From Paraburkholderia sp. PGU19 (GTDB lineage Bacteria; Pseudomonadota; Gammaproteobacteria; Burkholderiales; Burkholderiaceae), in contig NZ_AP023179.1 of assembly GCF_013426915.1 (NCBI RefSeq), positions 434,001 to 498,000 of the forward strand: a stretch of 64,000 bases of DNA, written 5' to 3'. The position numbers and the translations under genes are program-made. The notes beneath the pieces are model-generated. The model ran no database searches, was not told where the DNA came from, and saw only the letters and a list, made by a program, of their open reading frames with translations. This document shows positions 6,674 to 60,694 of the stretch, in pieces. Position 1 is the stretch's first letter; each line of letters opens with the position of its first letter.

Positions 6674-8257
6674 ATGCGTTTCCTGCGTTTCCTCAAGATT
6701 TTCTTTACCGTCATCCGCTTTGGGCTGGACGAGATGATGCTGAGCCGCATCAACGATCGCCGCGTGCGGATGTTGCTGCGTATCACCACGATCGGCCGGA
6801 AGTTCGACCAGCCGCCGGGCGTGCGGCTGCGTCTCGCGCTCGAAAGCCTCGGGCCGATTTTCGTGAAGTTCGGCCAGGTGCTGTCCACGCGCCGCGACCT
6901 GCTGCGCCCCGACATCGCCAGCGAGCTTGCCAAGCTGCAGGATCAGGTGCCGCCATTCGATTCGGCGGTGGCGATCGCGATCATCGAAAAGTCGCTCGGC
7001 GCGCCCGTCGATACGATCTTCGACGACTTCGAACGCGTGCCCGTGGCGAGCGCGTCGATCGCGCAGGTTCACTTCGCGACCTTGAAGACGGGCCAGCACG
7101 CGGGCAAGCAGGTCGCCGTGAAGGTGCTGCGGCCGAACATGCTTCCCGTGATCGATTCCGATCTCGCGCTGCTGCGCGACATCGCCGTGTGGGCGGAGCG
7201 TCTGTGGGCGGACGGCAAGCGCCTGAAGCCGCGCGAAGTGGTCGCGGAATTCGACAAGTATCTGCACGACGAACTCGACCTGATGCGCGAAGCCGCGAAC
7301 GGCAGCCAGCTGCGGCGTAACTTCGCGGGCCTGGATCTGCTGCTCGTCCCGGAGATGTACTGGGAGTTCTGCACGGCGAACGTGCTCGTGATGGAGCGGA
7401 TGGTCGGCGTGCCGATCAGCCAGGTCGATACGCTGCGGGCGGCGGGCGTCGATATTCCGAAGCTCGCGCGCGAGGGCGTCGAGATTTTCTTCACGCAGGT
7501 GTTCCGCGACGGCTTTTTCCACGCGGACATGCACCCAGGCAACATCCAGGTCAGTCTCGATCCGGTGCATTTCGGCCGTTATATCGCGCTGGATTTCGGC
7601 ATCATCGGCGCGCTGTCGGACTTCGATAAGAACTATCTCGCGCAGAACTTTCTCGCGTTCTTCAAGCGCGACTACCACCGCGTCGCGACGCTGCATCTGG
7701 AGTCCGGCTGGGTGCCGCCCACGACGCGTGTCGAAGAACTCGAAAGCGCGATTCGCGCGGTCTGCGAGCCGTACTTCGATCGCGCGCTGAAGGACATTTC
7801 GCTCGGCCAGGTGTTGATGCGGCTCTTCTCGACGTCGCGCCGCTTCAACGTCGAAATCCAGCCGCAACTGGTGCTGCTGCAGAAGACGATGCTGAACGTC
7901 GAAGGTCTGGGCCGTTCACTCGATCCCGAACTCGACTTGTGGAAGACCGCCAAGCCGTATCTGGAACGCTGGATGAACGAGCAGATAGGCGCGAAAGGCT
8001 GGTATGAGCGGCTGAAAATCGAGGCGCCGCAGTGGAGCAAGACGCTGCCGCAGCTGCCGCGGCTGATCCATCACGTGCTGGCGCAGCGTCATGACGTGCA
8101 GCAGCGCGGGATCAACGACGAAACCATCCGCCAGATCCTGCTCGAGCAGAAGCGCACGAACCGGCTGCTGCAAGGTCTGCTGATGTTCGGCGTGGCCGTG
8201 GGTGTCGGTGCGGTGCTGGCGCGCGCATGGCTCGCCATTGCGTACGGCGGGTATTGA
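6674..8257 (+). CDS. ubiB: Ubiquinone biosynthesis regulatory kinase-like protein UbiB
   Basis: 527 residues, near the usual 520-546. It shows the ABC1/ADCK atypical kinase signatures: KxGQ-like segment [18 protein letters not shown], the Ala-rich loop [12 protein letters not shown], the lysine strand VAVKVLRP, the catalytic region [13 protein letters not shown] and the metal-binding ALDFGIIG. The extreme C-terminus has a hydrophobic membrane anchor ([23 protein letters not shown]). UbiB is an ATPase thought to help extract or hand over hydrophobic ubiquinone precursors. It follows ubiJ by 15 bases. Confidence 0.95.
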
Positions 8258-19249: not shown

Positions 19250-19262
19250 CGATTCGCCATAG

Positions 19263-19436
19263 GATCAGAGTAAGCGCTGAAGCGCTAACTCTGATCGACA
19301 TGGCATGGGACCAGAGTACGGCGCCAAAGCGCCAACTCTGGTCGACTCACCAAGGGATCAGAGTAAGCGCTAAAGCGCTAACTCTGTTCGACATGGCGTG
19401 GGACCAGAGTAAGGCGCTAAAGCGCCAACTCTGGTC
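19263..19436 (+). repeat. Duplicated hairpin array between the dehydrogenase and thiolase genes
   Basis: Two tandem copies with a 93-base period (19263-19343 and 19356-19436). Each copy carries two hairpins. Hairpin 1 pairs GATCAGAGTaAGCGCT with AGCGCTaACTCTGATC around a 2-base loop (19263-19296 and 19356-19389). Hairpin 2 pairs GACCAGAGT..GGCGC with GCGCC.ACTCTGGTC (19309-19343 and 19402-19436). The four stems share the AGAGT/ACTCT arms. The array lies inside a co-directional gene run, just before the thiolase ribosome-binding site GGAGAACC, so it could stabilise mRNA ends, attenuate transcription or bind a protein. Confidence 0.85.
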
Positions 19437-19454: not shown

Positions 19455-20654
19455 ATGACCAAGCAACTGCAGGATGCATATATCGTCGCCGCGAGCCGCA
19501 CGCCGATTGGCAAGGCGCCGCGCGGAATGTTCAGGAACACGCGCCCGGACGAACTGCTGGTGCACGCGATCCGCTCGGCCGTCGCGCAGGTGCCGGGCCT
19601 CGACACGTCACTGATCGAAGACGCGATTGTCGGCTGCGCGATTCCCGAAGCCGAACAGGGTTTGAACGTGGCACGCATGGGCGCGTTGCTCGCCGGCTTG
19701 CCGAATACGGTCGGCGGCGTGACGGTGAACCGCTTCTGCGCATCGGGCGTAACGGCGCTGGCGATAGCGGCGGATCGCATTCGCGTCGGCGAATCGGACG
19801 TGCTGATCGCGGGCGGGTGCGAATCGATGAGCATGGTGCCGATGATGGGCAACAAGCCGTCGCTGTCGCCGCATATTTTCGATCGCAATGAAGATGTGGG
19901 AATTGCTTACGGGATGGGCCTGACGGCAGAGAAGGTTGCGGAGCGCTGGAAGGTGAGCCGCGAGCAGCAGGATCAGTTTTCGGTCGAATCGCATCGCAAG
20001 GCGGTTGCTGCGCAACAGGCGGGCGAGTTCGACGACGAGATCGCGGCCTACACGATCACCGAGCGTTTTCCCGATCTCGCGACGGGCGAAGTGAGGGTGA
20101 AGACGCGCGAGGTGAAGCTCGATGAAGGTCCGCGCGCGGATACGTCGATGGAAGGGCTGGCGAAGTTGCGCACGGTGTTTGCGAACAAGGGCTCGGTGAC
20201 GGCGGGGAATAGTTCGCAGACGTCGGATGGGGCGGGCGCGTTGATCGTGGTGTCGGAGAAGATTCTCAAGCAGTTCAATCTGACGCCGTTGGCCAGGTTT
20301 GTCAGCTTCGCGGTGCGCGGAGTGCCTCCGGAGATCATGGGGATTGGTCCGAAGGAAGCGATTCCGGCGGCACTGAAGGCCGCGGGGCTCAAGCAGGACG
20401 ATATCGACTGGATCGAGTTGAATGAGGCTTTTGCCGCGCAGTCTCTGGCGGTTATCAACGATCTTGGGCTCGATGTTTCGAAGATTAATCCGCTGGGTGG
20501 GGCTATTGCGTTGGGGCACCCGCTGGGGGCTACGGGGGCGATTCGCGCTGCTACCGTTGTTCATGGCCTACGGCGGCGGAATTTGAAGTACGGGATGGTC
20601 ACTATGTGTGTGGGCACCGGGATGGGTGCGGCTGGGATTATTGAGCGGGTTTGA
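19455..20654 (+). CDS. Acetyl-CoA C-acyltransferase (thiolase)
   Basis: 399 residues. Thiolase signatures are complete: nucleophile cysteine in VNRFCASGVTALAIAADRI (near residue 97), LNEAFAAQSLAVINDLGL, the histidine in ALGHPLGATGA, and the second cysteine in TMCVGTGMGAAGI near the C-terminus. It performs the final thiolytic step of beta-oxidation. Preceded by GGAGAACCTC and by the hairpin array. Codon use changes along the gene: toward the 3' end G- and T-ending codons become frequent, as discussed under the repeat elements. Confidence 0.95.
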   Translation: MTKQLQDAYIVAASRTPIGKAPRGMFRNTRPDELLVHAIRSAVAQVPGLDTSLIEDAIVGCAIPEAEQGLNVARMGALLAGLPNTVGGVTVNRFCASGVTALAIAADRIRVGESDVLIAGGCESMSMVPMMGNKPSLSPHIFDRNEDVGIAYGMGLTAEKVAERWKVSREQQDQFSVESHRKAVAAQQAGEFDDEIAAYTITERFPDLATGEVRVKTREVKLDEGPRADTSMEGLAKLRTVFANKGSVTAGNSSQTSDGAGALIVVSEKILKQFNLTPLARFVSFAVRGVPPEIMGIGPKEAIPAALKAAGLKQDDIDWIELNEAFAAQSLAVINDLGLDVSKINPLGGAIALGHPLGATGAIRAATVVHGLRRRNLKYGMVTMCVGTGMGAAGIIERV

Positions 20655-20674: not shown

Positions 20675-21520
20675 GCGGGCCGCTGGTTTTTTGTGGTTCG
20701 CATGTGGTTTTGCTGGCATTCGCGAAGCGGGGGTTGCTGCGCACGCTGGTGTGGTTTGCTTGTGTTTGCGCTGGCATCCGCGATTCGTTAGCGTGCTTCA
20801 CGCGTCGCCCCTGTGCGGGGCGGCACCTACTTTTCTTTGCCGCCGCAAAGAAAAGTAGGCAAAAGAAAGCGGCTAACACCGCCAACATTTCTTCTTGCCT
20901 GAGGGCCCCCAAAGGGTCTTACGCTTCACACGGCAACATCCTTGTTCGCGCGTGTTGCCAACGCTTCGAATGAACGCCTCACCCGCTTCCAATACTCGTC
21001 CTCGGGCAAGCGGCAGCGAATGGATTGTGCCGCCTAGGTGGCAAACTGTGTGTAGGTTGTCGCGTCGTATAACGCGGCGCTCTTACAGGGTGGGACGCGT
21101 GCCCCTATCGGTCCGGAGTGAGGCGTGCGGAGCACCTGGGGCCTACACACAGTTTGCCACCTGGGCGGCCGTGGAATATCTGGTGCGGCATGCTGCGACG
21201 CGGGTGTGTGAAGTGGGTGATGCGCTGGATTGGAGCGTTGGCAACGAACGCGAACAGGAAAGTTGCCGTGTGAAGTGAGGGACCGGTTGGGGGCCCTCAG
21301 GCAGGAAGAAGAACTGGCGGTGTTAGCCGCATTCTTTTGCCTACTTTTCTTTGCGGCGGCAAAGAAAAGTAGGTGCCGCCCCGCACAGGGGCGACGTTTG
21401 AAGCACGCTAACGAATCGCGGACGCCAGCGAAACGGCAAGCACAGAACATCGAAGCGTGCGCAGCAAACACCGTAACGCGGATGCCAGCGCAAAGGCCAA
21501 AACGCACCGCAAAGGCAACA
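20675..21520. repeat. Palindromic intergenic element A (full length)
   Basis: No gene is supported in this 0.88-kb gap. It holds a large imperfect palindrome. The outer arms are G/T-rich units of about 50 bases containing GCTGGTGTGG and GCTGGCATCCGCG. Inside lie CGCCCC/GGGGCG hairpins, then 15-bp stems CCTACTTTTCTTTGC / GCAAAGAAAAGTAGG at 20826-20859 and 21340-21373. A core follows, bounded by a perfect 20-base inverted pair GGTGGCAAACTGTGTGTAGG (21037-21056, 21142-21161). It separates the thiolase from the enoyl-CoA hydratase. Outer borders are approximate. Confidence 0.9.
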
Positions 21521-21537: not shown

Positions 21538-22302
21538 ATGGACATCGAAATCACCCGCACACACGACGTGCAAACAATCGCCTTCACCCGCCCGGAAAAG
21601 AAAAACGCAATCACAGCAGCGATGTACCAAACGATGGCCGACGCGCTGGTCGAAGCGCAACAAGACCCGGCCACCCGCGCGGTGCTAATCCGCGGTAGCG
21701 CGGGAATCTTCAGCGCCGGCAACGACCTCGAAGACTTCATGAAGCAACCGCCCGTCAGCGACGACGCCCCGGTCTTCCAGTTCCTGCGGGCCATCAGCTC
21801 GGCAGAAAAACCACTAGTGGCATCAGTAGCCGGCGCAGCCGTAGGCATCGGCACAACGCTGCTGCTGCATTGCGACCTGGTCTACGCCGGCGACACAGCG
21901 ACCTTCTCGCTGCCATTCGCGCAACTGGGCCTGTGCCCGGAAGCCGCATCGTCGCTGCTGCTGCAACGCGTCGCGGGCTATCAGGGCGCAGCGGAAAAGC
22001 TGATGCTCGGCGAACCGTTCGACGCCAAAGAAGCGCAACGCATGGGCTTCGTGAACCGCATCCTGCCCGCGGCCGAAGTCGACGCATTCGCGCTGCAGCA
22101 GGCGCAAAAGCTGGCCGCCTTGCCAGCATCGTCGCTCCGCGTAACCAAGCAGTTAATGAAGCGCGCCGCGCAGCACGAAATCCAGACCCAAATGACCGAC
22201 GAAGCCGTGCATTTCGCCAAGATGCTGCTCGCACCCGAAGCGAAGGAAGCGTTCAAGGCATTCTTCGAGAAGCGCAAACCGGACTTCCGCCAGTTCAGCT
22301 AA
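21538..22302 (+). CDS. Enoyl-CoA hydratase/isomerase family protein
   Basis: 254 residues of crotonase fold: FTRPEKKNAIT, the oxyanion-hole segment IFSAGNDLEDFM, and VAGAAVGIGTTLLLHCDLVYAGDTATFSLPFAQLG. The position usually holding the first catalytic glutamate is not obviously conserved, and LGLCPEAASSLLL carries the second-glutamate region, so it may be an isomerase rather than a hydratase. GGAGGAGTGACAA precedes the start. It continues the fatty-acid cluster but is separated from the thiolase by element A. The first third is rich in A- and C-ending codons. Confidence 0.9.
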   Translation: MDIEITRTHDVQTIAFTRPEKKNAITAAMYQTMADALVEAQQDPATRAVLIRGSAGIFSAGNDLEDFMKQPPVSDDAPVFQFLRAISSAEKPLVASVAGAAVGIGTTLLLHCDLVYAGDTATFSLPFAQLGLCPEAASSLLLQRVAGYQGAAEKLMLGEPFDAKEAQRMGFVNRILPAAEVDAFALQQAQKLAALPASSLRVTKQLMKRAAQHEIQTQMTDEAVHFAKMLLAPEAKEAFKAFFEKRKPDFRQFS

Positions 22303-27537: not shown

Positions 27538-27805
27538 CGGGGCATCCGTGAATTCAGTTGAGCCGACAGGGATGGCGCTCGCGACGACGGCATGACCGGG
27601 AAGACCAGTGTCAGCGCGGCGAAAGCGGCGCCAGCCGGCTTCTGCGACAATGTTGCTAGATCAGGAATTGTACGGGAAAGCGCACGCTGGAACTTATTGG
27701 CAGCGTGCCGCGTTCGGAACGCCGTTTTGTTCGTCGAACGCACTTGCCTGTCACATTCCCCACGAGTCACGCGTCAAGCGTGCTGGCTTTCCCCACAATA
27801 GAACC

Positions 27806-29689
27806 ATGCGTCGCTCTTCCGCTTCGTCCGAACCGTCGCCGATTTCGAATCTGCCGCGCAACGACTGGCAAACCATCGTCTCGCTGTTGCCGTACCTCGC
27901 GACCTACAAGTGGCGCGTGGTGTTCGCGCTCAGCTGCCTGATCGGCGCGAAGGTAGCCAATCTGGGCGTGCCGATCGTGATGAAGCGCATCGTCGACAGT
28001 CTGGCTTCCGTGCAGCACCTGACGGCGCTCGGCCGCGCGACGAACGCACCGGGTATTGTGCTGCTCGGCGGCGTGGGGCTGCTGGTGGTCGCGTATGCCG
28101 TCGTGCGTCTGTCCACTTCGCTCTTCACCGAGTTGCGCGAAATTCTGTTCTCGAAGGTGACGGAAAGCGCGGTGCGGCAACTGGCGCTGAAAGTGTTCCG
28201 GCATCTGCATGCGCTGTCGCTGCGTTTTCATCTGGAGCGGCAGACGGGTGGCATGTCGCGGGATATCGAGCGCGGCACGCGCGGCATCACGCAACTGATC
28301 TCGTACTCGCTCTATAGCATTCTGCCGACGCTCGTCGAAGTCGGACTCGTGCTCGGCTTCTTCGTCGTCAAATACGAGGCGTATTACGCGATCGTCACGT
28401 TCATCGCACTGGCCGCGTACATCACGTTCACGGTGAAGGTAACCGAGTGGCGCACGCATTTTCGCCGCACGATGAACGAACTCGATTCAAAGGCGAACTC
28501 GCGCGCCATCGATTCCCTGCTGAACTACGAGACGGTCAAGTACTTCAACAATGAAGAGTGGGAAGCGCGGCGTTACGACGAGAACCTGAAGCGCTATCGC
28601 GCGGCGGCGATCAAGTCGCAGAACTCGCTGTCGGCGCTGAACTTCGGGCAACAGGCGATCATCGGCACTGGGCTCGTGTTCATCCTGTGGCGCGCGACGC
28701 AGGGCGTGATGGCGGGGCGGCTGACGCTCGGCGATCTCGTGCTGATCAACACGTTCATGTTGCAGCTGTATATTCCGCTGAATTTTCTCGGTGTCGTGTA
28801 TCGCGAGTTGAAGCAGAGCCTCACCGATATGGACCGCATGTTCACGCTGCTTGGGGCGGCGCGCGAAGTGCCTGATGCACCCGATGCGTTACCGCTTGTC
28901 GTGAGCGGCGCGCAGGTGAGCTTCGAGCATGTGAACTTCGCGTACGAGCCGGCACGTCCGATTCTGCATGACGTGAGCTTCACGATTGCTGCCGGTACGA
29001 CGACGGCTGTGGTTGGCCATAGCGGCTCGGGCAAATCGACGCTCGCGCGGCTGCTGTTTCGCTTCTACGATCTGGATCGTGCGACGGGCGGCGCGATTCG
29101 CATCGACGGGCAGGATATTCGCGATGTGACGCAGGATTCGCTGCGGGCGTCGATCGGTATCGTGCCGCAGGATACGGTGTTGTTCAACGACACGATCTAT
29201 TACAACATCGCGTATGGCCGGCCTTCGGCGACGCGCGACGAGGTGATTGCGGCGGCGCGCGCGGCGCATATTCATGAGTTTATCGAGAGCTTGCCCAAGG
29301 GGTATGACACGCCCGTCGGCGAACGTGGGTTGAAGCTTTCTGGTGGTGAGAAGCAGCGCGTTGCGATTGCGCGGACCGTGCTGAAGAATCCGCCTGTGCT
29401 GCTGTTCGATGAAGCGACTTCGGCGCTTGATTCGCGGTCGGAGCGGGCTATCCAGCATGAGTTGGATTTGATTGCTCGCGAGCGGACGACTTTGATTATT
29501 GCGCATCGGCTATCCACGGTTGTGCACGCGGAGCAGATTATCGTGATGGATAAGGGGCGCATCGTCGAGCGCGGGACTTTTGGCGAGCTTCTTCTCGTTG
29601 GTGGGTTGTTTGCGCAGATGTGGGCCTTGCAGCAGGAGCGTGCTGCGCACGCGGAAGAGGTTTTGGATTTGCCTGGGGATGGGGGGTGA
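27806..29689 (+). CDS. ABC transporter, fused permease/ATPase (Atm1/HMT1-like)
   Basis: 627 residues from ATG 27806; an upstream frame adds 66 unlikely residues. The N-terminal half is a six-helix membrane domain (YKWRVVFALSCLIGAKVANLG; NELDSKANSRAIDSLLNYETVKYFNNE, a segment typical of Atm1-type exporters). The ATPase half has Walker A VGHSGSGKST, signature LSGGEKQRVAIA, Walker B VLLFDEATSALD and H-loop IAHRLST. Atm1-like exporters move glutathione-linked metal or sulfur compounds; the substrate here is inferred. The last about 300 bases show a marked shift to G/T-ending codons next to element B. Confidence 0.92.
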   Translation: MRRSSASSEPSPISNLPRNDWQTIVSLLPYLATYKWRVVFALSCLIGAKVANLGVPIVMKRIVDSLASVQHLTALGRATNAPGIVLLGGVGLLVVAYAVVRLSTSLFTELREILFSKVTESAVRQLALKVFRHLHALSLRFHLERQTGGMSRDIERGTRGITQLISYSLYSILPTLVEVGLVLGFFVVKYEAYYAIVTFIALAAYITFTVKVTEWRTHFRRTMNELDSKANSRAIDSLLNYETVKYFNNEEWEARRYDENLKRYRAAAIKSQNSLSALNFGQQAIIGTGLVFILWRATQGVMAGRLTLGDLVLINTFMLQLYIPLNFLGVVYRELKQSLTDMDRMFTLLGAAREVPDAPDALPLVVSGAQVSFEHVNFAYEPARPILHDVSFTIAAGTTTAVVGHSGSGKSTLARLLFRFYDLDRATGGAIRIDGQDIRDVTQDSLRASIGIVPQDTVLFNDTIYYNIAYGRPSATRDEVIAAARAAHIHEFIESLPKGYDTPVGERGLKLSGGEKQRVAIARTVLKNPPVLLFDEATSALDSRSERAIQHELDLIARERTTLIIAHRLSTVVHAEQIIVMDKGRIVERGTFGELLLVGGLFAQMWALQQERAAHAEEVLDLPGDGG

Positions 29690-29698
29690 GTTTTTTTT

Positions 29699-29968
29699 GT
29701 CTGCGACGCTGGGTGGTTTTTGGGCCTTTGCTCCGGCATTCGCGATGCGGTGGTTGCTGCGTACGCTGGTGTGGTTTGCTAGTGTTTTCGCTGGCATCCG
29801 CGATTCGTTAGCCTTGCTTCAAGCGTCGCCCCGCACAGGGGCGATGCTTGAAGCACGCTAACGAATCGCGGATGCAAGCGCAAAGGCAAAAACATCAAAC
29901 CGCTTGCGCAGCAAACACAGCCACCCGGATGCCAGCGCAAAGCCCCAAAACCACCCAGCGTCGCAGAC
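29699..29968. repeat. Palindromic intergenic element B (short form)
   Basis: It fills the gap between two convergent genes. The ends are inverted repeats (GTCTGCGACGCTGGGTGG on the left and its complement on the right). Each arm has two homologous units of about 50 bases ending in GCTGGCATCCGCG or similar. The arms meet at one CGCCCC-gcaca-GGGGCG hairpin; the 0.5-kb core of elements A, D and E is missing. G+T is very high just left of the element and A+C just right. Confidence 0.88.
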
Positions 29969-29976
29969 AAAAAAAC

Positions 29977-30687
29977 CTAAACCCTCAGCACCTTATCGAG
30001 CGCCTCAAGCTGCGCGGGAGTCCCAACGTTCTCCCACAACCCAGTATAAAGCGCCCCCGTAGCGCGCCCCTGCGCAATAGCCTCACGATAAAAAGGCGTA
30101 AGCGCCCTCCGCGTCCCCGGCGCGAGATCCCGAAACATCCGCGTGTCGTAAAGCCCGATGCTTCCAAACGTATACCGCGGCGCGCCCTCAAGCGCCAACA
30201 CTCCATCGCCGCCGAGCACGAAATCACCGGCAGGATGAAACGAAGGATTCGGCACCATCACAAGATGCATCCCCGGCAAATCCGCAGCAGCAAGACGCGC
30301 ACCCGCCGCGCGCAGCGTCGAATAATCAAAATCCGCGTACACGTCACCCGCAACAGCCACGAACACCTCAGGCGCGCCTGAGTCCTCCAGCAACGGCAAC
30401 GCCTTGGCAATCCCACCCGCCGTTTCGAGCGCTTCATGCTCGGCGGAATAACGCAACTCGACACCAAACCGCGAACCATCGCCCAACGCATCCTCGATCT
30501 GCGCGCCGAGCCAGGCATGATTCACGACAATCGTCGTAAAACCGGCGTCTGCCAGGCGCTCGATCTGCCATTCGATCAGCGCCTTGCCGCCCACTTTCAA
30601 CAACGGCTTCGGACACGTGTCCGTCAACGGCCGCATCCGGTCGCCGCGCCCGGCGGCGAAGATCATTGCTTTGTTCAAGTTCTTCAC
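29977..30687 (-). CDS. murU: N-acetylmuramate-1-phosphate uridylyltransferase MurU
   Basis: 236 residues. Nucleotidyltransferase signatures are MIFAAGRGDRMRPLTDTCPKPLLKVGGKALIEWQ, with the GxGxRMRPLT loop and the PKPLL lysine. It converts MurNAc-1-phosphate to UDP-MurNAc in the peptidoglycan recycling route that bypasses de novo MurA. It begins with GTG at 30687, three bases after the amgK stop, so the two are coupled; an internal ATG seven codons on is an alternative. The 3' third is unusually rich in A/C on the + strand next to element B. Confidence 0.92.
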   Translation of the reverse strand: MKNLNKAMIFAAGRGDRMRPLTDTCPKPLLKVGGKALIEWQIERLADAGFTTIVVNHAWLGAQIEDALGDGSRFGVELRYSAEHEALETAGGIAKALPLLEDSGAPEVFVAVAGDVYADFDYSTLRAAGARLAAADLPGMHLVMVPNPSFHPAGDFVLGGDGVLALEGAPRYTFGSIGLYDTRMFRDLAPGTRRALTPFYREAIAQGRATGALYTGLWENVGTPAQLEALDKVLRV

Positions 30688-39068: not shown

Positions 39069-39184
39069 AGTTTTGCGTATGGGGCGTGTGGACGCTGAGG
39101 GCTTGGGTTTGGCGAGCGCGCGGCGTTTTGGGTTTTTCTGTACATTTACGCCCTCGACATCCCTACACAATACTGGAGTGCACA

Positions 39185-39571
39185 ATGCGCCTTCTTCACA
39201 CCATGCTTCGAGTCGGCAATCTCGACCGCTCGATCAAGTTTTATACCGAATTGCTCGGGATGAAAGTGCTGCGTCGAAATGATTATCCTGAGGGAAAGTT
39301 TACGCTTGCGTTTGTTGGGTATGAAGATGAGAAAGATGGCACGGTTATCGAGCTGACTCACAATTGGGATACCGGGTCGTACGATTTGGGTGATGGGTTT
39401 GGGCACCTGGCGGTTGAGGTGGATGACGCGTATGCCGCGTGCGCCAAGATCAAGGAGCAGGGCGGGACGGTTGTGCGGGAGGCAGGGCCTATGAAGCACG
39501 GTACGACCGTTATCGCGTTTGTGACTGACCCTGACGGGTATAAGATCGAGTTTATTCAGCGGAAGTCTTGA
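39185..39571 (+). CDS. gloA: Lactoylglutathione lyase (glyoxalase I)
   Basis: 128 residues from ATG 39185 ([26 protein letters not shown]). Metal-ligand segments include [24 protein letters not shown] and YKIEFIQ, typical of the Ni-type glyoxalase I. It isomerises the methylglyoxal-glutathione adduct to S-lactoylglutathione. The second half is strongly G/T-rich on the coding strand (about 70% at 39361-39420), next to element C. Confidence 0.95.
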
Positions 39572-39585
39572 GGGGTTTTTTTGTT

Positions 39586-39803
39586 GTCTGCGCACGCTGG
39601 TGTGGTTTGCTTGTGGCTTTTCGCTGGCATCCGCGCTATGCCTTCGTGCTTCACGCGTCGCCCCGCACAGGGGCAACGCGTGAGGCACGCTAACAAAACG
39701 CGGATGCCAGCACAAACCAAATCCAAACCAGAAAGCTGGCGCAGCAAACACCGCCCACCGGATGCCCGCACAAAGCCAAGCAAACCACACCAGCGTCGCA
39801 GAC
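39586..39803. repeat. Palindromic intergenic element C (short form)
   Basis: It lies between two convergent genes. The left end GTCTGCGCACGCTGGTGTGG mirrors the right end (complement of GTCTGCGACGCTGGTGTGG). The arms of about 50-base units meet at CGCCCC-gcaca-GGGGCA, with no core. It has the same organisation as element B. The right flank, 39781-39840, is about 78% A+C by count. Confidence 0.88.
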
Positions 39804-39817
39804 AAACCCCAAAAAAA

Positions 39818-40675
39818 TCACAGAGTCGGCAACAACTCCGGCGGATGATGCTTCAAAGTCTGCCTTGCCTCGCGGAATTCCGGAAAAATCGACTCCACCG
39901 TCTGCCAGAACTTAGGACTATGGTTCATCTCGCGCAAATGCGCGAGTTCATGCGCGACGACGTAGTCAATAACGGATAAAGGAAAGTGAATCAACCGCCA
40001 GTTAAGGCGAATCTTTCCATCGCTAGAACAGCTACCCCACCGCGTAGCGGCGGAAGAAAGCCCATAAGCCCGATACGAAACCCCGAGTTTCTCGGCATAC
40101 ACAACAAGACGTTCACCGAAAATCCGCTTCGCCTCGTTCTGCAGCCAGCCCTGCACGCGATCCTTGATCTGCTGCGGATCAGCCTGCGCCGGCAGCGGCA
40201 GCGCGAGCACATTCCGCGCAGCATCGTACGCAACCACCCCATTTGCAGTGGCGAGCGTGACACGCACAGTCTGCCCAAGATAGGGCACCTCAGCGCCGTC
40301 TTTCCAGTCGACGCGCGGCATCACGCGCTGCTCAGTGCGCGTCTGCCACTCAGTGAGTTTGGTAAAGATCCAGCGCTGCTTTTCGGCGATCGCCGTTTCG
40401 ATATCAGCGAGCGTGACCCACCGCGGCGCGGTGATAGTCAGTCCCGTGCTGTCGATCGCAAACCCGATCGAGCGCCGCGACGAACGCTTCAACCCGTATT
40501 GCAACGTGCGCGCACCAAGCGTGACGCTGCGCAGTTTCGAACCATCGGGAGCGAGGGGAGCAGCGGACTTGGGTTGCGGCGGCGCGGCAGGTTTGCCCGG
40601 CTCGTCGAAGAGCGGCAGATCCAGTTGCCGGCTATCGAGCGCCGCAGCAGGCTGCGGCTTGGAAGACTTCTGCAT
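39818..40675 (-). CDS. YgjP-like (M48/SprT-type) metallopeptidase domain protein
   Basis: 285 residues from ATG 40675; a GTG three codons upstream is possible. It has the zinc-protease motif VVAHELAHLREMNHSPKFW (HExxH plus downstream His) near the C-terminus, and the family segment RWGSCSSDGKIRLNWRLIHFP. An N-terminal Pro/Lys-rich stretch is probably disordered. Family members are assumed metallopeptidases, but substrates are unknown. It is convergent with gloA across element C. Confidence 0.88.
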   Translation of the reverse strand: MQKSSKPQPAAALDSRQLDLPLFDEPGKPAAPPQPKSAAPLAPDGSKLRSVTLGARTLQYGLKRSSRRSIGFAIDSTGLTITAPRWVTLADIETAIAEKQRWIFTKLTEWQTRTEQRVMPRVDWKDGAEVPYLGQTVRVTLATANGVVAYDAARNVLALPLPAQADPQQIKDRVQGWLQNEAKRIFGERLVVYAEKLGVSYRAYGLSSAATRWGSCSSDGKIRLNWRLIHFPLSVIDYVVAHELAHLREMNHSPKFWQTVESIFPEFREARQTLKHHPPELLPTL

Positions 40676-40735
40676 CGGACTCACTTCGCGCTGATACGCT
40701 GCAACGCGCGCATGTGCGCATTGCAGCGTGGCGCG

Positions 40736-47224: not shown

Positions 47225-48121
47225 TCAGGTTTGCACGTGCTGGGCGTCGCGTTCGCGCTGTCCAGCGAGCGGATCGCGGCGCACGAGCAGCATGTGGATC
47301 TGGCGCGCGTCGGCGCGCAGCACTTCGAAGATCAGGTCGTCGAGCTTCACTTTCTCGCCGCGATGCGGCACGCGTCCGAAATGGTGCGTGACAAGGCCGC
47401 CGATCGTGTCGACTTCGTCGTCGGAGAAGTGCGTGCCGAACTCTTCGTTGAACTGCTCGATCTCGGTCAGCGCGCGCACGCGATAGCGTCCGTCTGGCGA
47501 CGCGATGATATTGCCGCTTTCTTCGTCGAAATCGTATTCGTCCTCGATGTCCCCGACGATCTGCTCCAGCACGTCCTCGATCGTGATCAGGCCGGCGACG
47601 CCGCCGTATTCGTCGACGACGATCGCGATGTGATTGCGGTTGACGCGGAAGTCGTGCAGCAGCACGTTCAGACGTTTCGATTCGGGAATGAACACGGCAG
47701 GGCGCAGCATGCCGCGCACGTCCGCTTCGTCTTCGGCGTAGTAGCGCAGCAGATCTTTCGCGAGCAGCACGCCGATCACGTTGTCGCGATTGCCTTCGTA
47801 CACGGGATAGCGCGAGTGCGCCTTTTCCAGCATGTACGGAATGAATTCGTCGGGGGCGTCCGCGATGTTGATCGCGTCCATTTGCGAGCGCGGGATCATG
47901 ATGTCGCGCGCGCAGAGCTCGGAAACCTGGAAGACGCCTTCGATCATCGACAGCGAATCTGCGTCGATCAGATTGCGTTCGTGCGCGTCCTGCAGGATTT
48001 CGAGAAGTTCGCCGCGAGAATCGGGCTCGGGCGAGATGAAGTCGGTCAATCGCTCGAGGAGGGAGCGCTTTTCCTGGGGTTTGTCGCTGGTATGGCGTCG
48101 ACTGGGATACGAATCGTTCAT
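47225..48121 (-). CDS. corC: CorC/HlyC family protein with CBS domains (YbeX)
   Basis: 298 residues. Two CBS domains are visible (MIPRSQMDAINI near residue 75 and FIPESKRLNVLLHDFRVNRNHIAIVVDEYGGVAGLITIEDVLEQIVGDIEDEYD), then a CorC_HlyC transporter-associated domain. No membrane segment is present, so it is the YbeX-type soluble form. The family is linked to magnesium/cobalt efflux and, for YbeX, to ribosome biology. It precedes lnt; the usual upstream partners ybeY and phoH are 2.9 kb away behind chaC and element D. Confidence 0.9.
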   Translation of the reverse strand: MNDSYPSRRHTSDKPQEKRSLLERLTDFISPEPDSRGELLEILQDAHERNLIDADSLSMIEGVFQVSELCARDIMIPRSQMDAINIADAPDEFIPYMLEKAHSRYPVYEGNRDNVIGVLLAKDLLRYYAEDEADVRGMLRPAVFIPESKRLNVLLHDFRVNRNHIAIVVDEYGGVAGLITIEDVLEQIVGDIEDEYDFDEESGNIIASPDGRYRVRALTEIEQFNEEFGTHFSDDEVDTIGGLVTHHFGRVPHRGEKVKLDDLIFEVLRADARQIHMLLVRRDPLAGQRERDAQHVQT

Positions 48122-48539
48122 GGTGGTGCGCCCGGAAAGCTGGGCGCGCTGTTGCAGAGTGTTAAGGATACACCACGTGCGTGGCAGGACCGTGTCCTAG
48201 GGCCACCGCGTGGTGCAGGGCGGATTTTCCGGTTTGGGCCGCTGGTTTCACCGGGGGAAGACCGGGTTTCGGCGGAAAACGCTCGCTTTTATCCTAACTG
48301 ATATCTGGGGGTTGGGGGGCGGGTGGTCAAAATTAGGTTTTTTGTAGGGCGCCTGCGCGGCGCGGGCGATTTCGGTTTTTTGCGCTTTTCGCCTGGCGGT
48401 TGGGTTTCGGTGTTTGCTGCGCACGCTGGTGTGGCTTGGTTGCGTTTGCGCTGGCATCCACGTTTTGTTAGCGTGCTTCACGCGTCGCCCCTGTGCGGGG
48501 CGGCACCTACTTTTCTTTGCCGCCGCAAAGAAAAGTAGG

Positions 48540-49664
48540 GGCGGTTTCAAAGACCAAGTGCAACAGCGGGGTTGATTTCGATTCCCTGCTTCTTGCAGTT
48601 TTCAATAAAGACTTGCGCGGGCGTTCTCCAGCCGAGCGTCTTGCGCGGACGGTTGTTCATCTCTATCGCAATCATGTCGAGCTGGCGCTGCGAGAGCACG
48701 GACAGGTCCGCGCCCTTGGGCAGGTACTGGCGCAACAGACCGTTGGTGTTCTCACAGATGCCGCGCTGCCACGGGCTGTGTGGATCGCAGAAGTAGATGC
48801 GCATGCCCGTTGCTTTGGCCAGTTCCTTGTGCAGTGCCATCTCCTTGCCCTGATCGTAGGTCAGCGTCTTGAGCAGTTCCGGGTCAAGCGGCGCAAACGC
48901 TGCGCTGTAGCCCCGCAACGCCGCTTCCGCCGTGCTGTCATCCATCTTGACCAGCATCAGGAACAGCGTGCTGCGATCGATCAGCGTGCCCACCGCCGAG
49001 CGGTTTCCTGCCCCCTTGATGAGATCGCCTTCCCAGTGTCCGGCAAGCACCCGCTCGTTCGCCTCCGGGGGGCGCACATGGATGCTGACCATGTCAGTGA
49101 GCTTGCCACGCCGGTCTTCGCCGCGCGAGCGGGGTCTGCGCGTGCTGCGTCCCCGTCTGAGCAGCGCGATCAGCTCGCGTTTGAGCTCGCCCCGAGGCAT
49201 GGCATAGATGGCGTGATAGATGGTTTCGTGAGACACGTTCAGGGTGGGCTCATCCGGATGCGCCTGCTTCAGCTGCGCACTGATCTGCTCGGGTGAATGG
49301 CATTTGGCCAGCAGTTCACGCACCTGCGGCCACAGCGGCCCATCGACGTGCAGCTTGCGTTCCCGCCGAGGCTTGCGCCGCAGTCTGCCTGCCCGCAAAC
49401 CCGCACGCCTTGAATTGTAACCGCCGGCGATCGGCGGTCGTCCCATCGTTGCGCGCTCGTGAGCCGGTTTCCAGTCATTGCGCTTCAGTTCGCGACTGAT
49501 CGTACTGGGTGAGCGCACAAGCGCACGCGCGATCTCGCGCGTGCTCTTGTCCTCAAACTTCATTGTAAAGATCACACCGCGCTCTTCGGCGCTCAGCTGT
49601 TCGTAGTTTTTTCCCATGCAACGTATCCTAAACGGAAGTGTTGCACTTGCATCTTGAAACCGCC
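48540..49664 (-). mobile_element. IS30-family insertion sequence
   Basis: 1125 bases bounded by 26-base imperfect terminal inverted repeats (left 48540-48565 starting GGCGGTTTCAA, right 49639-49664; four mismatches). It is flanked by a direct AGG at 48537-48539 and 49665-49667. The uninterrupted copies of the repeat read AAGTAGGCAAAAG at this spot, so AGG is the duplicated target. One transposase gene fills the element and its stop lies inside the left inverted repeat. It looks complete and recent. Confidence 0.93.
48547..49617 (-). CDS. IS30-family transposase
   Basis: 356 residues. An N-terminal helix-turn-helix (YEQLSAEERGVIFTMKFEDKSTREIARALVRSPSTISREL) is followed by the DDE catalytic core: Asp in HWEGDLIKG, Asp in LTYDQGKE and Glu in CENTNGLLRQYLPKG. 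Intact reading frame with no frameshift. It is carried by the insertion sequence inside element D. Confidence 0.95.
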   Translation of the reverse strand: MGKNYEQLSAEERGVIFTMKFEDKSTREIARALVRSPSTISRELKRNDWKPAHERATMGRPPIAGGYNSRRAGLRAGRLRRKPRRERKLHVDGPLWPQVRELLAKCHSPEQISAQLKQAHPDEPTLNVSHETIYHAIYAMPRGELKRELIALLRRGRSTRRPRSRGEDRRGKLTDMVSIHVRPPEANERVLAGHWEGDLIKGAGNRSAVGTLIDRSTLFLMLVKMDDSTAEAALRGYSAAFAPLDPELLKTLTYDQGKEMALHKELAKATGMRIYFCDPHSPWQRGICENTNGLLRQYLPKGADLSVLSQRQLDMIAIEMNNRPRKTLGWRTPAQVFIENCKKQGIEINPAVALGL

Positions 49665-50274
49665 AGGCAAAAGAAAGCGGCTCACACCGCCAACATTTCT
49701 TCTTGCCTGAGGGCCCGCAACCGGTCCCTCACTTCACACGGCAACTTTCCTGTTCGCGTTCGTTGCCAACGCTCTCTCTTTACGCCTCACCCGCTTCATG
49801 TACCCGCGTCGCAGCACGCCGTGCCAGACATTCCACTGCCGCCCAGGCGGCAAACTGTGTGTAGGCCGTAGTACTGCAAACGCCCCACTTCGGACCGATC
49901 GCGCATGCGTCCCACCTGTAAGAGCGCCGAGTTATACGACGCGACAACCTACACACAGTTTGCCACCTGGGCGGCAGAAACCATTCGCTGCCGCCAGCCG
50001 TTGTGCGGGTGTTTGAAGTGGGTGAGGCGCTGATTCGAAGCGTTGGCAACAGGCGCGAACAAGGACGTGCCGTGTGAGGCGCAAGACCGGTTGGGGGCCC
50101 TCAGGCAAGAAGAAATGTTGGCGGTGTGAGCCGCTTTCTTTTGCCTACTTTTCTTTGCGGCGGCAAAGAAAAGTAGGTGCCGCCCCGCACAGGGGCGACG
50201 CGTGAAGCACGCTAACGAATCGCGGATGCCAGCACAGACACCAGCAAACCACCCCAGCGTACGCAGATAAAAAC

Positions 50275-50928
50275 CTACCCCCGACACCTCACCAACAGCG
50301 CCTCGAGCGCTCTATCTGGCATGCCACTTTCCCGCAGCGCCTCAACCGTACGACTCACGTAATCGAGCGTCGTCCCATACCGCCCGGAAGCACACCCAAG
50401 CACCGCTTTCACAACGTCATCAGACAGCTTGCCCGTATAAGAAGCCACATCCCGCCGCATCACAAACGCGAGCGCATCGACGCGCCGCCCGTCGGCAAGC
50501 ACACACGGCAGCCATGCCGGCCGATATGAACCCATCGCCATCTCGCGCCGCCACAGCGCTTCCAGATGCGGCATCGCGCCCTCAGCGGCGAGCCTGAACG
50601 CAATCCCACTACACGACCCGCCTCGGTCCAACGCAAGCACGAGCCCCGGCTGCTCCGGCGTCCCGCGATTAACCCGCGACCACAAATACAACCCGCGATG
50701 ATATCCATGCACCCGCGAGCGCAACGCTTCGACAGTCGGCAGACCGGGATTCCAGATCAGCGACCCATAGCCGAACAGCCACAAGTCGGTCTTGCGATCC
50801 CAGTCTCGGAGTGCGCACTCGAGCGACGCGCGCAGTTCATCGTCCGTCAACAGCCGCGACTCGCCGAGCGAAGGCGGATAGTCGGGGCACGGTTGACGCG
50901 GTGTCGGTGATGAAAGGGGTTGGCTCAC
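50275..50928 (-). CDS. chaC: Glutathione-specific gamma-glutamylcyclotransferase (ChaC-like)
   Basis: 217 residues. Start motif DLWLFGYGSLIWNPGL (YGSL substrate loop), VLALDRGGSCSGIAFRL, and the downstream region with the catalytic Glu (LWRREM) match ChaC. It cleaves gamma-glutamyl peptides such as glutathione into 5-oxoproline and Cys-Gly. GTG start; no internal Met before the YGSL motif and no strong ribosome-binding site. The gene interrupts the usual ybeY-corC neighbourhood. The end of the gene is A/C-rich on the + strand near element D. Confidence 0.9.
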   Translation of the reverse strand: MSQPLSSPTPRQPCPDYPPSLGESRLLTDDELRASLECALRDWDRKTDLWLFGYGSLIWNPGLPTVEALRSRVHGYHRGLYLWSRVNRGTPEQPGLVLALDRGGSCSGIAFRLAAEGAMPHLEALWRREMAMGSYRPAWLPCVLADGRRVDALAFVMRRDVASYTGKLSDDVVKAVLGCASGRYGTTLDYVSRTVEALRESGMPDRALEALLVRCRG

Positions 50929-58121: not shown

Positions 58122-58342
58122 GTGCAGATAGTCATCTGAGTCTCCTGTCGACCGGGTTGGCGCATGTGCGCTTTACTTTGGTCCTGTGCGGAATGGCCGC
58201 TGCCGTGCTGCTCGTTGCGAGCGGCGCGCGAATGCGCTGTCCATTCGTTGCATGGCAGCCGCTTGCGGCTCGCGGGACGCGTTTGTCTGTTTGCAATGCC
58301 CTGAAACGTTTTTCGCCCACACTCTTGCGAGGAGCGTTTCAC
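58122..58342 (+). promoter_or_regulatory. Leader between FMN riboswitch and ribB (expression platform)
   Basis: 221 bases without a supported gene. A hairpin AGCCGC-TT-GCGGCT (58257-58270) is visible but has no T-tract, so the control may act on translation or through another structure. The ribB site GAGGAGCG precedes its ATG. Confidence 0.55.
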
Positions 58343-59089
58343 ATGTCCGCTGTATCTGCATCCGTATCTGCGTCTGCTGCATTTGTTTGGCCTGCGCCGT
58401 CTGTCGTCGCTGAGGACGCATCCGCCGATCTTCCCCTGCTTGCCACCGAACCCATTCCGCCGCGCATCGCCGCCGCGCTCGATGCGTTGCGCGAGGGCCG
58501 TGCCGTTGTGCTTCAGGACGATCACGATCGCGAGAACGAGGCCGATCTCATCATGTCGGCCGAGCGCATGAGCGTCGAGATGATGGCGCTGTTTATCCGC
58601 GAGTGCAGCGGGATCGTGTGTCTTTGCCTGACTGACGACAAGGTGCGCGCGCTCGAATTGCCGCCGATGACCGCACATAACGAAAGCCGCAACACGACGG
58701 CGTTCACGGTGTCGATCGAAGCGCGTGAAGGTGTGTCGACGGGTGTGTCTGCCGCTGACCGGCTCACGACGATTCGTGCCGCGATTGCTGATAACGCGAA
58801 GCCTGCGGACATTGTGCGTCCGGGTCACGTGTATCCGTTGCGCGCGATGCCGGGCGGGGTGTTGGCGCGGCGCGGGCATACGGAAGGGACTGTCGATCTC
58901 GTGACTTTGGCGGGGCTGAAGCCCGCTGGGGTTTTGTGCGAGCTGATGAATGCCGATGGCACGATGATGCGAGGGGCCGATGTCGAGCGTTTCGCCGCTC
59001 TGCACGATATGCCGATGCTTACTATCGCGGAACTGGTTGAGTTTCGGCGCGCGATGGCCTTCGCGCGGGAGGCTTGTTTCGAGGTTTGA
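58343..59089 (+). CDS. ribB: 3,4-dihydroxy-2-butanone 4-phosphate synthase RibB
   Basis: 248 residues from ATG 58343, preceded by GCGAGGAGCG. Catalytic segments are [37 protein letters not shown] and [14 protein letters not shown]. It makes the four-carbon unit of riboflavin from ribulose 5-phosphate. No GTP cyclohydrolase II domain is fused. It is under the FMN riboswitch. The N-terminal about 40 residues are Ser/Ala/Val-rich and not conserved. The last third is G/T-biased near element E. Confidence 0.94.
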
Positions 59090-59106
59090 GGTTTTTTTGT
59101 TTTGTT

Positions 59107-59853
59107 GTCTGCGACGCTGGGTGGTCTGCTTGTGTTTGCGCTGGCATCCGCGATTCGTTAGCGTGCTTCAGGCGTCGCCCCTGTGCGGGGCGGCACCTAC
59201 TTTTCTTTGCCGCCGCAAAGAAAAGTAGGCAAAAGAAAGCGGCTCACACCGCCAACATTTCTTCTTGCCTGAGGGCCCCCAACCGGTCTTACGCCTCACA
59301 CGGCAACGCACTTGTTCGCGTGTGTTGCCAACGCGCTGAATGAACGCGTCACCTGCTTCAAATTCCTATACAACGGCTGGCGGCAGCGAATGGTTTCTGC
59401 CGCCCAGGTGGCAAACTGTGTGTAGGTTGTCGCGTCGTATAGCGTGGCGCTCTTACATGGTGGTGCGCGTGCGCTATCGGTCCGAAGTGGGGCGCGCGTG
59501 TCTCTACGGCCTACACACAGTTTGCCACCTGGGCGGCGGCGGAATATCTGGCACGGTGTGCCGCAACGCGGGCGCGTGGAGTAGGTGAGGCGCTCTTTCA
59601 ATGCGCTGGCAACGAACATGGGTCACGTGATTGCCGTGTGAAGCGTAAGACCGGTTGGGGGCCCTCAGGCAAACACAAAAACTGGCGGTGTGAGCCGCTT
59701 TCTTTTGCCTACTTTTCTTTGCGGCGGCAAAGAAAAGTAGGTGCCGCCCCGCACAGGGGCGACGCGTGAAGCACGCTAACGAATCGCGGATGCCAGCGAA
59801 AAACACTAGCAAACCAACACCAGCGACAACCCTCAAACCAAAGCGTCGCAGAC
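59107..59853. repeat. Palindromic intergenic element E (full length)
   Basis: It fills the 777-base gap between the convergent ribB and HAD genes. Both ends carry GTCTGCGACGCT (59107 on; complement to 59853). The 15-bp hairpins CCTACTTTTCTTTGC / GCAAAGAAAAGTAGG lie at 59196-59229 and 59708-59741. The core 20-base inverted pair lies at 59407-59426 and 59510-59529 around an 83-base centre. This is the cleanest full copy in the window. Confidence 0.92.
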
Positions 59854-59866
59854 AAAAAACCCCCAA

Positions 59867-60553
59867 CTACGACTGCACCCCGTCAAACTCCCCCCGCAAA
59901 CCCGCCTGAACAATTGAGGGCAACTCATCCATATGCTGCATGATCCGCGTGATCCCCATATTCCGCAGCACATCGGCATAGCCATCAGGAATATGACTAG
60001 CCCCAACAAACGCAATCGTCATCATCCCCGCCGCGCGCGCGGCATTCAGCCCAGCGACGCTGTCTTCAACCACAATGCACCGCGACGGCTCGACGCCCAA
60101 CTGCTCCGCAGCAAACAGATACACATCGGGATAAGGCTTCGGCCGCGCGACCTGCTCAGCGCTAAACACCCGCGGTCCAAAAATCTCCGCCAGCCCGGCG
60201 CGGCGCACGGAGGCGCTCACACGCATCATCCGGCTATTCGACACGACAGCAGCAGGCAGCGATACGCGCAACAGTGCATCACGCACGCCACTAATCGCCG
60301 ACAGCGACGACGCAAGCTCTCTTTCGACGTTGGCCTCGACGGTCTGCAAAAAATCAGCGGGCAGCTCGATATCGAATGCCGCTTCGACGCTCTCCAGAAA
60401 CCGCGAAGTCTGCTGACCAAACGCCGTCTTGCAGATCTCGTGGAAATCGAGCGCGGGAAAAGTGGTGGCGAGCGTGTCGTGCATCACGCGGTCGGCGATG
60501 ACTTCGCTGTCGACGAGCACGCCGTCGCAGTCGCAAATGAGATGATCGATCAT
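59867..60553 (-). CDS. HAD-family phosphatase (phosphoglycolate phosphatase-like)
   Basis: 228 residues from ATG 60553 (MIDHLICDCDGVLVDSE); a longer frame adds 15 residues. HAD motifs are DCDGVLVDS (nucleophile Asp), VSNSRMM, a Lys in ARPKPYPDVYL and VVEDSVAGLNAARAAGM. It probably hydrolyses a sugar or gluconate phosphate, like YieH-type enzymes. It lies downstream of glpK on the same strand. The 3' end is strongly A/C-rich on the + strand next to element E. Confidence 0.88.
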   Translation of the reverse strand: MIDHLICDCDGVLVDSEVIADRVMHDTLATTFPALDFHEICKTAFGQQTSRFLESVEAAFDIELPADFLQTVEANVERELASSLSAISGVRDALLRVSLPAAVVSNSRMMRVSASVRRAGLAEIFGPRVFSAEQVARPKPYPDVYLFAAEQLGVEPSRCIVVEDSVAGLNAARAAGMMTIAFVGASHIPDGYADVLRNMGITRIMQHMDELPSIVQAGLRGEFDGVQS

Positions 60554-60694
60554 GCGGAAAATGAAACGAAAGCGCAGCCCGCAAGAGGCAGGACGCAAGA
60601 CATACGGCGGGCCGAAAGCGACATGATATGTGCATTGCGGCCCGGCGCGCGCCGGACGGCTCGCGCGACACGCCGTGCACCGACGTGCGTCAAC

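Follow-up and report, generated by a model that had tools for sequence, protein, structure and literature searches.

Five palindromic elements in the window

The DNA analysed here, a stretch of 64,000 nucleotides from Paraburkholderia sp. PGU19 (the window), belongs to contig C1 of a genome of 11.2 Mb in five contigs (G000) and carries five members, A to E, of a family of palindromic elements. At these elements the base composition of the forward strand switches from G+T-rich on the left to A+C-rich on the right, and this composition halo enters the neighbouring genes. We found that it is the product of a substitution process that is linked to the element, symmetric, largely dependent on age and strand-asymmetric. 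The nearest named relatives of the nucleotidyltransferase gene of the window are Paraburkholderia, with 83-86% protein identity (its own record possibly excluded). The elements and the genes that flank them are the following.

20692..21510, element A, full palindrome, arms 20750-20998 and 21201-21449
29689..29984, element B, short form: outer arms enclosing a single CGCCCC-GCACA-GGGGCG hairpin, without the interior
39561..39817, element C, short form
48374..50302, element D, full form whose left arm is interrupted by an insertion sequence
48547..49617, minus strand, transposase in the arm of element D, HTH_38 and rve domains, which we take to be IS30-type
59083..59868, element E, full palindrome, arms 59135-59306 and 59631-59802
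19455..20654, plus strand, thiolase gene, left halo of A, pointing toward the element
21538..22302, plus strand, enoyl-CoA hydratase (ECH) gene, Pfam-identified, right halo of A, pointing away
27608..29689, plus strand, ABC transporter gene, left halo of B
29977..30687, minus strand, nucleotidyltransferase gene, presumably murU-like, right halo of B
39086..39571, plus strand, glyoxalase-family gene, left halo of C, uncalled by the gene finder and hence outside the codon comparison
39818..40684, minus strand, YgjP-like gene, right halo of C, uncalled by the gene finder
47225..48121, minus strand, CorC-like gene, left of D, pointing away
50275..50928, minus strand, ChaC-like gene, right halo of D, uncalled by the gene finder
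58157..59089, plus strand, ribB-like gene, left halo of E
59867..60598, minus strand, HAD-hydrolase gene, right halo of E

The original prediction had described five palindromic elements, each with a halo. All five have one, but they are not of a single form, A and E being full, B and C short and D interrupted by an insertion sequence.

Composition switch at the elements

In the 1066 sixty-base lines of the window mean G+T was 0.506 (standard deviation 0.076), with 14 lines at or above 70% and 8 at or below 30%. Twelve of the 14 G+T-rich lines and all 8 G+T-poor ones lie in the five elements or within 500 bp of them; the other two G+T-rich lines start at 8161 and 45361. The flanking lines of the elements had G+T on the left and A+C on the right of 76.7 and 76.7% (B), 70.0 and 78.3% (C), 75.0 and 80.0% (E), 68.3 and 71.7% (A) and 73.3 and 65.0% (D), and along the thiolase gene G+T climbed toward element A from 48.3 to 58.3 and 65.0%. 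These values had been counted by hand in the original prediction, and all thirteen percentages agreed when recomputed.

A wider survey covered 1,226,500 bases of C1, namely the first 400 kb, 419-434 kb, the window and further stretches picked by the presence of the family 15-mer GCCCCGCACAGGGGC (the first 100 of its 296 places, C1 only), ignoring composition. Similarity to the five elements of the window, again without use of composition, identified 61 copies. For each copy we subtracted G+T in the 500 bp to the right from G+T in the 500 bp to the left; the difference was positive in 61/61, with a mean of 0.206, compared to -0.008 (standard deviation 0.0055) for 2000 random placements. A difference of at least 0.12 was reached by 53 of the 61 elements and by one of 91 element-free convergent spacers (mean 0.021), so that the same pattern at arbitrary convergent gene pairs, which would have spoken against a role of the element, was absent at 90 of them. 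A scan for keto switches of at least 0.16 that was blind to the elements found 48, 45 of them within 300 bp of an element; one of the remaining three contains a degraded relic of the family. Eight switches of reverse sign (A+C left, G+T right; at least 0.16) were also seen, at 484784, 717455, 949084, 1052979, 2327021, 2516881, 2520779 and 2542529 of C1, several within about 1 kb of an element.

The skew, computed against distance for the 61 copies as had been proposed, falls on both sides. On the strand running 5' to 3' toward the element (the inward strand, top on the left and bottom on the right), G+T over the 122 flanks was 0.68 at 0-50 bp, 0.59 at 200-300 bp, 0.53 at 600-1000 bp and 0.50 by 2.5 kb. 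The expected symmetry of element and halo was borne out in three chromosome stretches spanning both replichores, where left and right flanks gave 0.596 and 0.591 (n=21), 0.589 and 0.590 (n=16), and 0.614 and 0.627 (n=24); the replichore boundary was set at the GC-skew reversal near 1.9 Mb. This equality rules out an effect of the replication strand as the cause.

As predicted, the bias enters coding DNA and shifts synonymous codons, third-position G+T rising up to 0.80 over the genes that point toward an element. There, third-position C decreases from 0.43 to 0.11-0.18 and T increases from 0.095 to 0.31; A is halved from 0.08 to 0.04 at 100-300 bp but not over the first 50 bp (0.095), the position of stop codons. 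Exponential fits gave a length of 637 ± 35 bp and an amplitude of 0.35 for genes pointing toward the element, and 889 ± 118 bp and 0.20 for genes pointing away. The latter keep the same sign (inward G+T about 0.62 at 200-600 bp versus 0.49, 20-27 flanks), as checked in one Pfam-identified gene, ECH, and gene orientation is thus ruled out as the cause. By gene calls, 37 of the 73 spacers touching an element are convergent, 32 tandem and 4 divergent.

The halo follows the element

Orthologous loci with and without the element were compared, as had been suggested, using the relatives G026 and G014, of each of which 120 kb was read and in which no element was located there; 58 and 46 of 381 genes could be aligned, around no more than six elements (A to E and 429074). 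The bias was missing from the element-free orthologues. In genes pointing toward an element, the same codons within 500 bp had third-position G+T of 0.73-0.85 here versus 0.45-0.66 in G026 and G014, and beyond 3 kb the genomes agreed within 0.02. The thiolase gene gave 0.80 within 300 bp, 0.77 at 300-600 bp and 0.56 at 600-1200 bp, its orthologues 0.62/0.57/0.52 (G026) and 0.54/0.55/0.47 (G014). For the enoyl-CoA hydratase gene, inward values were 0.73/0.63/0.60 versus 0.63/0.44/0.42 (G026) and 0.57/0.40/0.35 (G014). The ABC transporter gene fell from 0.82 within 300 bp to 0.72, 0.63 and, beyond 1200 bp, 0.56 (element-free relatives 0.50-0.60 throughout), and the nucleotidyltransferase gene from 0.83 to 0.73 and 0.56 (element-free relatives 0.42-0.56). 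At element E, the ribB-like gene had 0.75 within 300 bp and then 0.60 (G026 0.44, 0.51), and the HAD-hydrolase gene 0.81 and 0.65 (G026 0.49, 0.51).

Relatives that carry the element have the halo too. It is present in G001 and G020, with elements at the same places, and an element also occupies the site of B in Paraburkholderia sp. Tr-20389 (L032) and Burkholderia sp. Ac-20365 (L033), in which the last 500 bp of the nucleotidyltransferase gene had G+T of 0.58-0.67 per 100-bp step, versus 0.48-0.59 in the element-free L029, L031 and L034. Across the 80 loci of this named-genome set (14 of which have no transporter nearby), a scan for switches of at least 0.19 found two, L033, with an element, and L084, without a family match; L032, despite its element, stays below this threshold. 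L108, considered as a second palindrome family with a halo, was dropped, as it shows no switch of at least 0.19, and spacers of about 2 kb without family matches were judged to reflect a mis-assigned transporter and were not used. In the remote relative G015 a halo was found at 5/5 loci, with means of 0.71, 0.63 and 0.59 over the first three 150-bp steps, the first of which at some loci takes in about 50 bp of arm sequence.

For 21 of the 61 elements the matching site could be classified in G020, the other 40 lying outside the G020 stretch compared or too close to a stretch end. Mean flank G+T was 0.611 where the G020 site is occupied (n=16) and 0.539 where it is empty (n=5; Mann-Whitney P 0.003), the halos of the 5 elements absent from G020 being weak and those of the 16 shared ones mostly strong. 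Element 732686, absent from G020, has no halo here. Because element-free orthologues lack the bias and copies absent from a relative have weak halos, we conclude that the halo arises after the element. Two outcomes that would have told against this, no difference between loci with and without the element and a halo older than the element, did not occur at the available loci. At two empty sites, 84186 (G020) and 112283 (G001 and G020), the element was inserted into a short spacer, with no clean target duplication readable of the kind sought in a test for insertion of the miniature inverted-repeat transposable element type. G020 also carries elements (G020:C1:2059236 and 2279976) with none at the matching place here, through loss here or gain there.

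Substitution spectrum near the elements

Taking G020 as the outgroup, we polarised the fourfold-site substitutions of this genome and G001 and compared those within 600 bp of an element (19 genes) with those beyond 3 kb (200 genes), on the inward strand and with intervals bootstrapped over genes. The most raised class was G>T, 48/1612 versus 197/29968 (4.5x, 2.9-6.2); also raised were C>G, 43/976 versus 637/29744 (2.1x, 1.5-2.9), and C>T, 55/976 versus 937/29744 (1.8x, 1.3-2.4). T>G was 2.2x (0.96-4.4), and A>G was 1.9x (0.8-3.4; 8/68 versus 164/2630, P 0.075), which is not significant. G>A was reduced, 28/1612 versus 938/29968 (0.55x, 0.3-0.9); C>A stood at 0.5x (0-1.1), T>C at 0.96x and G>C at 1.0x. 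The spectrum was unchanged when an element had to be near in both genomes, and the total substitution rate was 0.087, 0.069 and 0.062 at <600, 600-1500 and >3000 bp. The bases next to the C>T, C>G, G>T and G>A sites showed no clear pattern. In the unpolarised comparison with G026, fourfold sites gave C>T 3.7x, C>G 1.9x, G>T 6.9x, T>C 0.61x, G>C 0.70x and G>A 0.63x, and twofold sites T>C 0.23x and G>A 0.38x.

The original prediction had attributed the bias to deamination of C and A in single-stranded DNA. The strand asymmetry stands, but a spectrum in which C>T and A>G alone are raised does not, since G>T and C>G are raised as much or more; the process is strand-asymmetric mutation and not simply deamination of C and A. 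The recent changes look more like mutation than like selection for keto bases: G>T and T>G, which are keto-neutral, became more frequent, and neither T>C nor G>C was depleted. Over the longer term, the deficit of changes away from G/T is compatible both with selection and with a shifted equilibrium. Amino-acid identity between this genome and G020 in the last 150 bp beside elements was 0.886 versus 0.941, a difference that we did not use, as it has no control for variation at protein ends.

The element family

The interior of the element is about 586 bp long, and the majority consensus of 20 copies folds into one hairpin (-539 kcal/mol). It is bounded by CGCCCC-loop-GGGGCG hairpins, followed by degenerate, G/T-rich outer arms, and uninterrupted full copies measure about 700-870 bp overall. 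Short forms such as B and C keep the outer arms and one hairpin, the interior of about 570 bp being gone. The form differs at orthologous sites, with 186 bp here versus about 1.9 kb in G020, 296 bp versus 1.9 kb and 257 bp versus 0.85 kb; at the site of B both G001 and G020 have an interrupted element of about 1.86 kb. Halo strength did not differ between forms (short 0.596, full 0.603, interrupted 0.610), and form was dropped as its determinant.

There are 296 exact copies of the 15-mer GCCCCGCACAGGGGC here, 385 in G001 and 241 in G020, and it was present in 28 of the 59 genomes searched (this one counted), all of one genus. In a search of the window with Rfam family RF02421 (Bp1_684), arms of A (20734-20836) and D exceeded the threshold of 44 bits, with 46.6 and 47.1 bits, and elements B, C and E were not among the matches.

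The likeness of interiors was 0.851 among the 28 copies of this genome, 0.873 among the 13 of G020 and 0.744 between the two. At seven orthologous sites placed by synteny, the interiors of this genome and G020 were 0.733-0.758 alike, ranking 2-13 of 13, although the flanks of the elements are 84-96% identical; four orthologous pairs with the nearer relative G001 ranked 1, 3, 5 and 3 of 7 (0.796-0.888). Because orthologous interiors are no closer than other copies in spite of such flanks, the sites are old and their contents renewed, the interiors being homogenised within a genome (concerted evolution).

Unrelated insertion sequences have also settled in the elements. Transposases of five kinds by Pfam domain (HTH_38/rve, IS66, IS481-type, Mutator and DDE_Tnp_1) lie inside arms in three genomes, at 48547-49617, L112:8484-9929, L150:4774-5931, L197:10600-11886 and L127:9480-10886, and several insertion sequences sit at or within a terminal 34-bp mini-palindrome of the element. 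Elsewhere in the window, a flavin mononucleotide (FMN) riboswitch (RF00050, 57955-58125) directly precedes the ribB-like gene on the left of element E, and a tandem pair of a 93-bp unit, 90% alike, lies at 19250-19435.

A possible mechanism and its alternatives

We consider recurrent single-strand exposure at the palindrome, followed by error-prone repair, to be the best reading of these data, with a probability of roughly one half. The long inverted repeat would fold, and the chromosome would stall or be cut there. The inward strand would then be repeatedly exposed, over lengths between a few hundred bases and about 1.5 kb, as the 3' overhang that 5'-end resection of a break leaves, and damage in it, copied by error-prone synthesis, would yield C>T, C>G and G>T on that strand. 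Recombination repair from other copies would homogenise the interiors. We infer the single-strand exposure, the double-strand break and the error-prone polymerase from this footprint, and a break would most simply account for halos of equal strength left and right of the element in either replichore. The original prediction had the top strand exposed on the left and the bottom strand on the right after a break at the palindrome: the strand that bears the substitutions matches this resection geometry, but the proposed break has no known cutter here, because SbcCD was not found over cut-offs.

In Escherichia coli both SbcCD and RecBCD have roles at a chromosomal palindrome, SbcCD being the usual palindrome cutter. 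In profile searches SbcD exceeded the cut-off in 6 of the 59 genomes searched (this one counted), G015 included, and in 8 of 14 control genomes. RecB exceeded its curated cut-off twice in this genome, and DnaE2-type polymerases did so twice as well, one encoded by a single 1051-codon frame and the other in two parts. At G000:C4:1245238-1259462 a second recB copy and a partial match to an SbcD-like phosphoesterase lie some 10 kb apart, and a recB/SbcD-like pairing resembling it was also seen in the coordinates of G005, G004, G007, G027 and G031. As the halo occurs both in G015, where SbcD is present, and in genomes without SbcD over the cut-off, SbcCD does not seem to be needed for it; its absence may let long palindromes persist here.

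Several observations weigh against recurrent exposure and repair as we have described it. SbcD was not over the profile cut-off in this genome, G001 or G020, and SbcC was below it here (best match 21.9 versus 478.5 bits), the latter being a weak negative, as a single control genome of 14 passes the SbcC cut-off. At a palindrome in E. coli, chronic breakage is reported to have "no detectable consequence on mutagenesis" (PMC4213011). The reduced G>A is not explained by simply adding damage to the other strand; speculatively, lesions on that strand might be removed when it is resected and resynthesised. In genes pointing away from the element the halo is weaker (the amplitudes of 0.20 and 0.35 above), recent inward C>T is not raised (5/178 versus 0.0255) and the asymmetry comes from missing G>A (0/174 versus 0.036), both on small numbers. 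The CorC-like gene, left of D, is a weak case, with inward third-position G+T of 0.60 (15 codons), 0.60 and 0.64 versus 0.73 (15 codons), 0.57 and 0.52 in G026, so that the excess is slight, lies at 600-1200 bp and is reversed within 300 bp. The lack of any difference between short, full and interrupted forms is likewise unfavourable. Nor is age a clean clock: element 967483 is absent from G020 yet reaches 0.61 on one side, the two G020-only elements have halos of 0.563 and 0.591, close to the 17 shared ones (mean 0.597), and element 217481 of C1, which G001 and G020 also have, barely shows a halo here (0.52/0.52). Finally, the halo of G005 is weak (5 loci; 0.60, 0.54, 0.53).

Replication might instead stall at the hairpin or skip it without any double-strand break, leading-strand gaps beyond the element and lagging-strand gaps before it exposing the same strands. 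By our own reasoning the two flanks should then share one sign irrespective of fork direction, and this route makes SbcCD unnecessary, in line with halos in G015 and in genomes without SbcD over the cut-off. However, leading and lagging gaps would be expected to be unequal, whereas left and right halos are equal in both replichores, and homogenised interiors suggest recombination; we regard this as the strongest competitor, though an unlikely one. Selection for G/T-rich DNA beside a recombination hotspot, through Chi or RecA loading, appears less probable still. The sign of the halo does match the orientation of Chi and the preference of RecA for G/T-rich strands, G>A lies below background (0.55x), and in the unpolarised comparison with G026 all changes away from G/T are fewer, as a shifted mutational equilibrium would also make them. 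Yet the classes raised most are the keto-neutral G>T (4.5x) and T>G (2.2x), recent T>C (0.96) and G>C (1.0) are not reduced, and the overall rate is raised near elements. No k-mer was enriched: GCTGGTGG occurred inward 1, 2, 1, 1 and 0 times per 200-bp bin versus 2.6, 1.9, 1.6, 1.3 and 1.2 expected from composition. An oriented Chi-like octamer was not enriched among E. coli Chi and a few variants of it, which may not be the Chi of this organism, and Chi or another motif was set aside as the cause for want of enrichment beyond composition.

Transcription toward the element could expose the non-template strand, through R-loops at convergent gene ends, and the 37 convergent spacers among 73 and the stronger halo in genes pointing toward the element (0.35 versus 0.20) would suit it. 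Genes pointing away nevertheless carry the same sign, the opposite of what it predicts, and 90 of the 91 element-free convergent spacers stay below the level reached by 53 of the 61 elements, which makes this explanation very improbable. That the elements settle in regions already biased, or that the halo consists of decayed older arms, is hardly credible: the outer arms are themselves G/T-rich and degenerate, but the same codons show no bias in orthologues without an element, halos are weak at copies that a relative lacks, and the skew lies in conserved genes, at synonymous sites.

Comparison with known systems

Inverted repeats in yeast raise mutation on both sides via breakage and translesion polymerase (Saini et al. 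2013, PMC3681665). The part of that report available describes, as here, a long inverted repeat with mutation raised on both sides, and the model of a break, a long single strand and translesion synthesis is the yeast one; it concerns an experimental reporter and effects over up to 8 kb, whereas we describe a natural dispersed bacterial family with a strand-asymmetric evolutionary footprint of about 1 kb. Both the substitution excess falling with distance on either side and, with exceptions, the dependence on the repeat were found here, as in inverted-repeat mutagenesis. The "3R" hypothesis ascribes substitution clusters around repeats, bacteria included, to recurrent error-prone repair (McDonald et al. 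2011, PMC3114760); it deals with short repeats and indels, and the accessible part of the paper does not mention a mirror-symmetric strand bias. The E. coli palindrome (PMC4213011, in the part available) is likewise a chronic break site, with RecA needed for survival, but differs in that no mutagenesis was detected there and that SbcCD is not over the cut-off here.

REP/BIME palindromes are some 20-40 bp long, a size that the present elements, with a 586-bp consensus interior folding as one hairpin, far exceed. REP/BIME sequences, with their RAYT transposases, resemble them in being extragenic, palindromic and present in more than 100 copies (PMC2817692, available part), the repeat here being far longer, with an interior of about 590 bp and about 700-870 bp for uninterrupted full copies, and insertion sequences sitting in REPs have been reported for Pseudomonas putida (PMC8450116). 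Bp1_684 (RF02421) is a Burkholderia candidate small RNA, described as a single candidate tested by reverse transcription-polymerase chain reaction (PMC3521395). Arms of A and D exceed the threshold of this family, which is described, in the available part of that source, without a palindrome, a repeat family or a halo (PMC3521395). No title or abstract found by searches of an open-access library described such a halo, most subscription journals lying outside that coverage. Mutation near fragile repeats is known, and a mirror-symmetric, strand-asymmetric footprint around a natural bacterial repeat family is, as far as we have searched, undescribed.

Implications for the genome

If recurrent exposure and repair is the correct reading, this one genome may contain some 150 or more chronic single-strand or break sites, an estimate that follows from 296 copies of the 15-mer at about two per full copy. 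Each site would have its own mutation regime over about 1 kb, and the same repair would keep the copies alike. This wider picture is tentative, and we hold it with somewhat less confidence than the mechanism itself. Under it, and with the same reserve, codon use would drift with distance from the nearest element, and the halo would record the length of repair tracts and the mutation spectrum. The length of resection or gaps and the mutation spectrum of exposed DNA would then be readable from a natural genome, at many sites, without experiment. Strong local composition shifts at gene ends, moreover, can be mutational rather than adaptive or horizontally acquired, and here a repeat family would set the composition and codon use of the genes near it.

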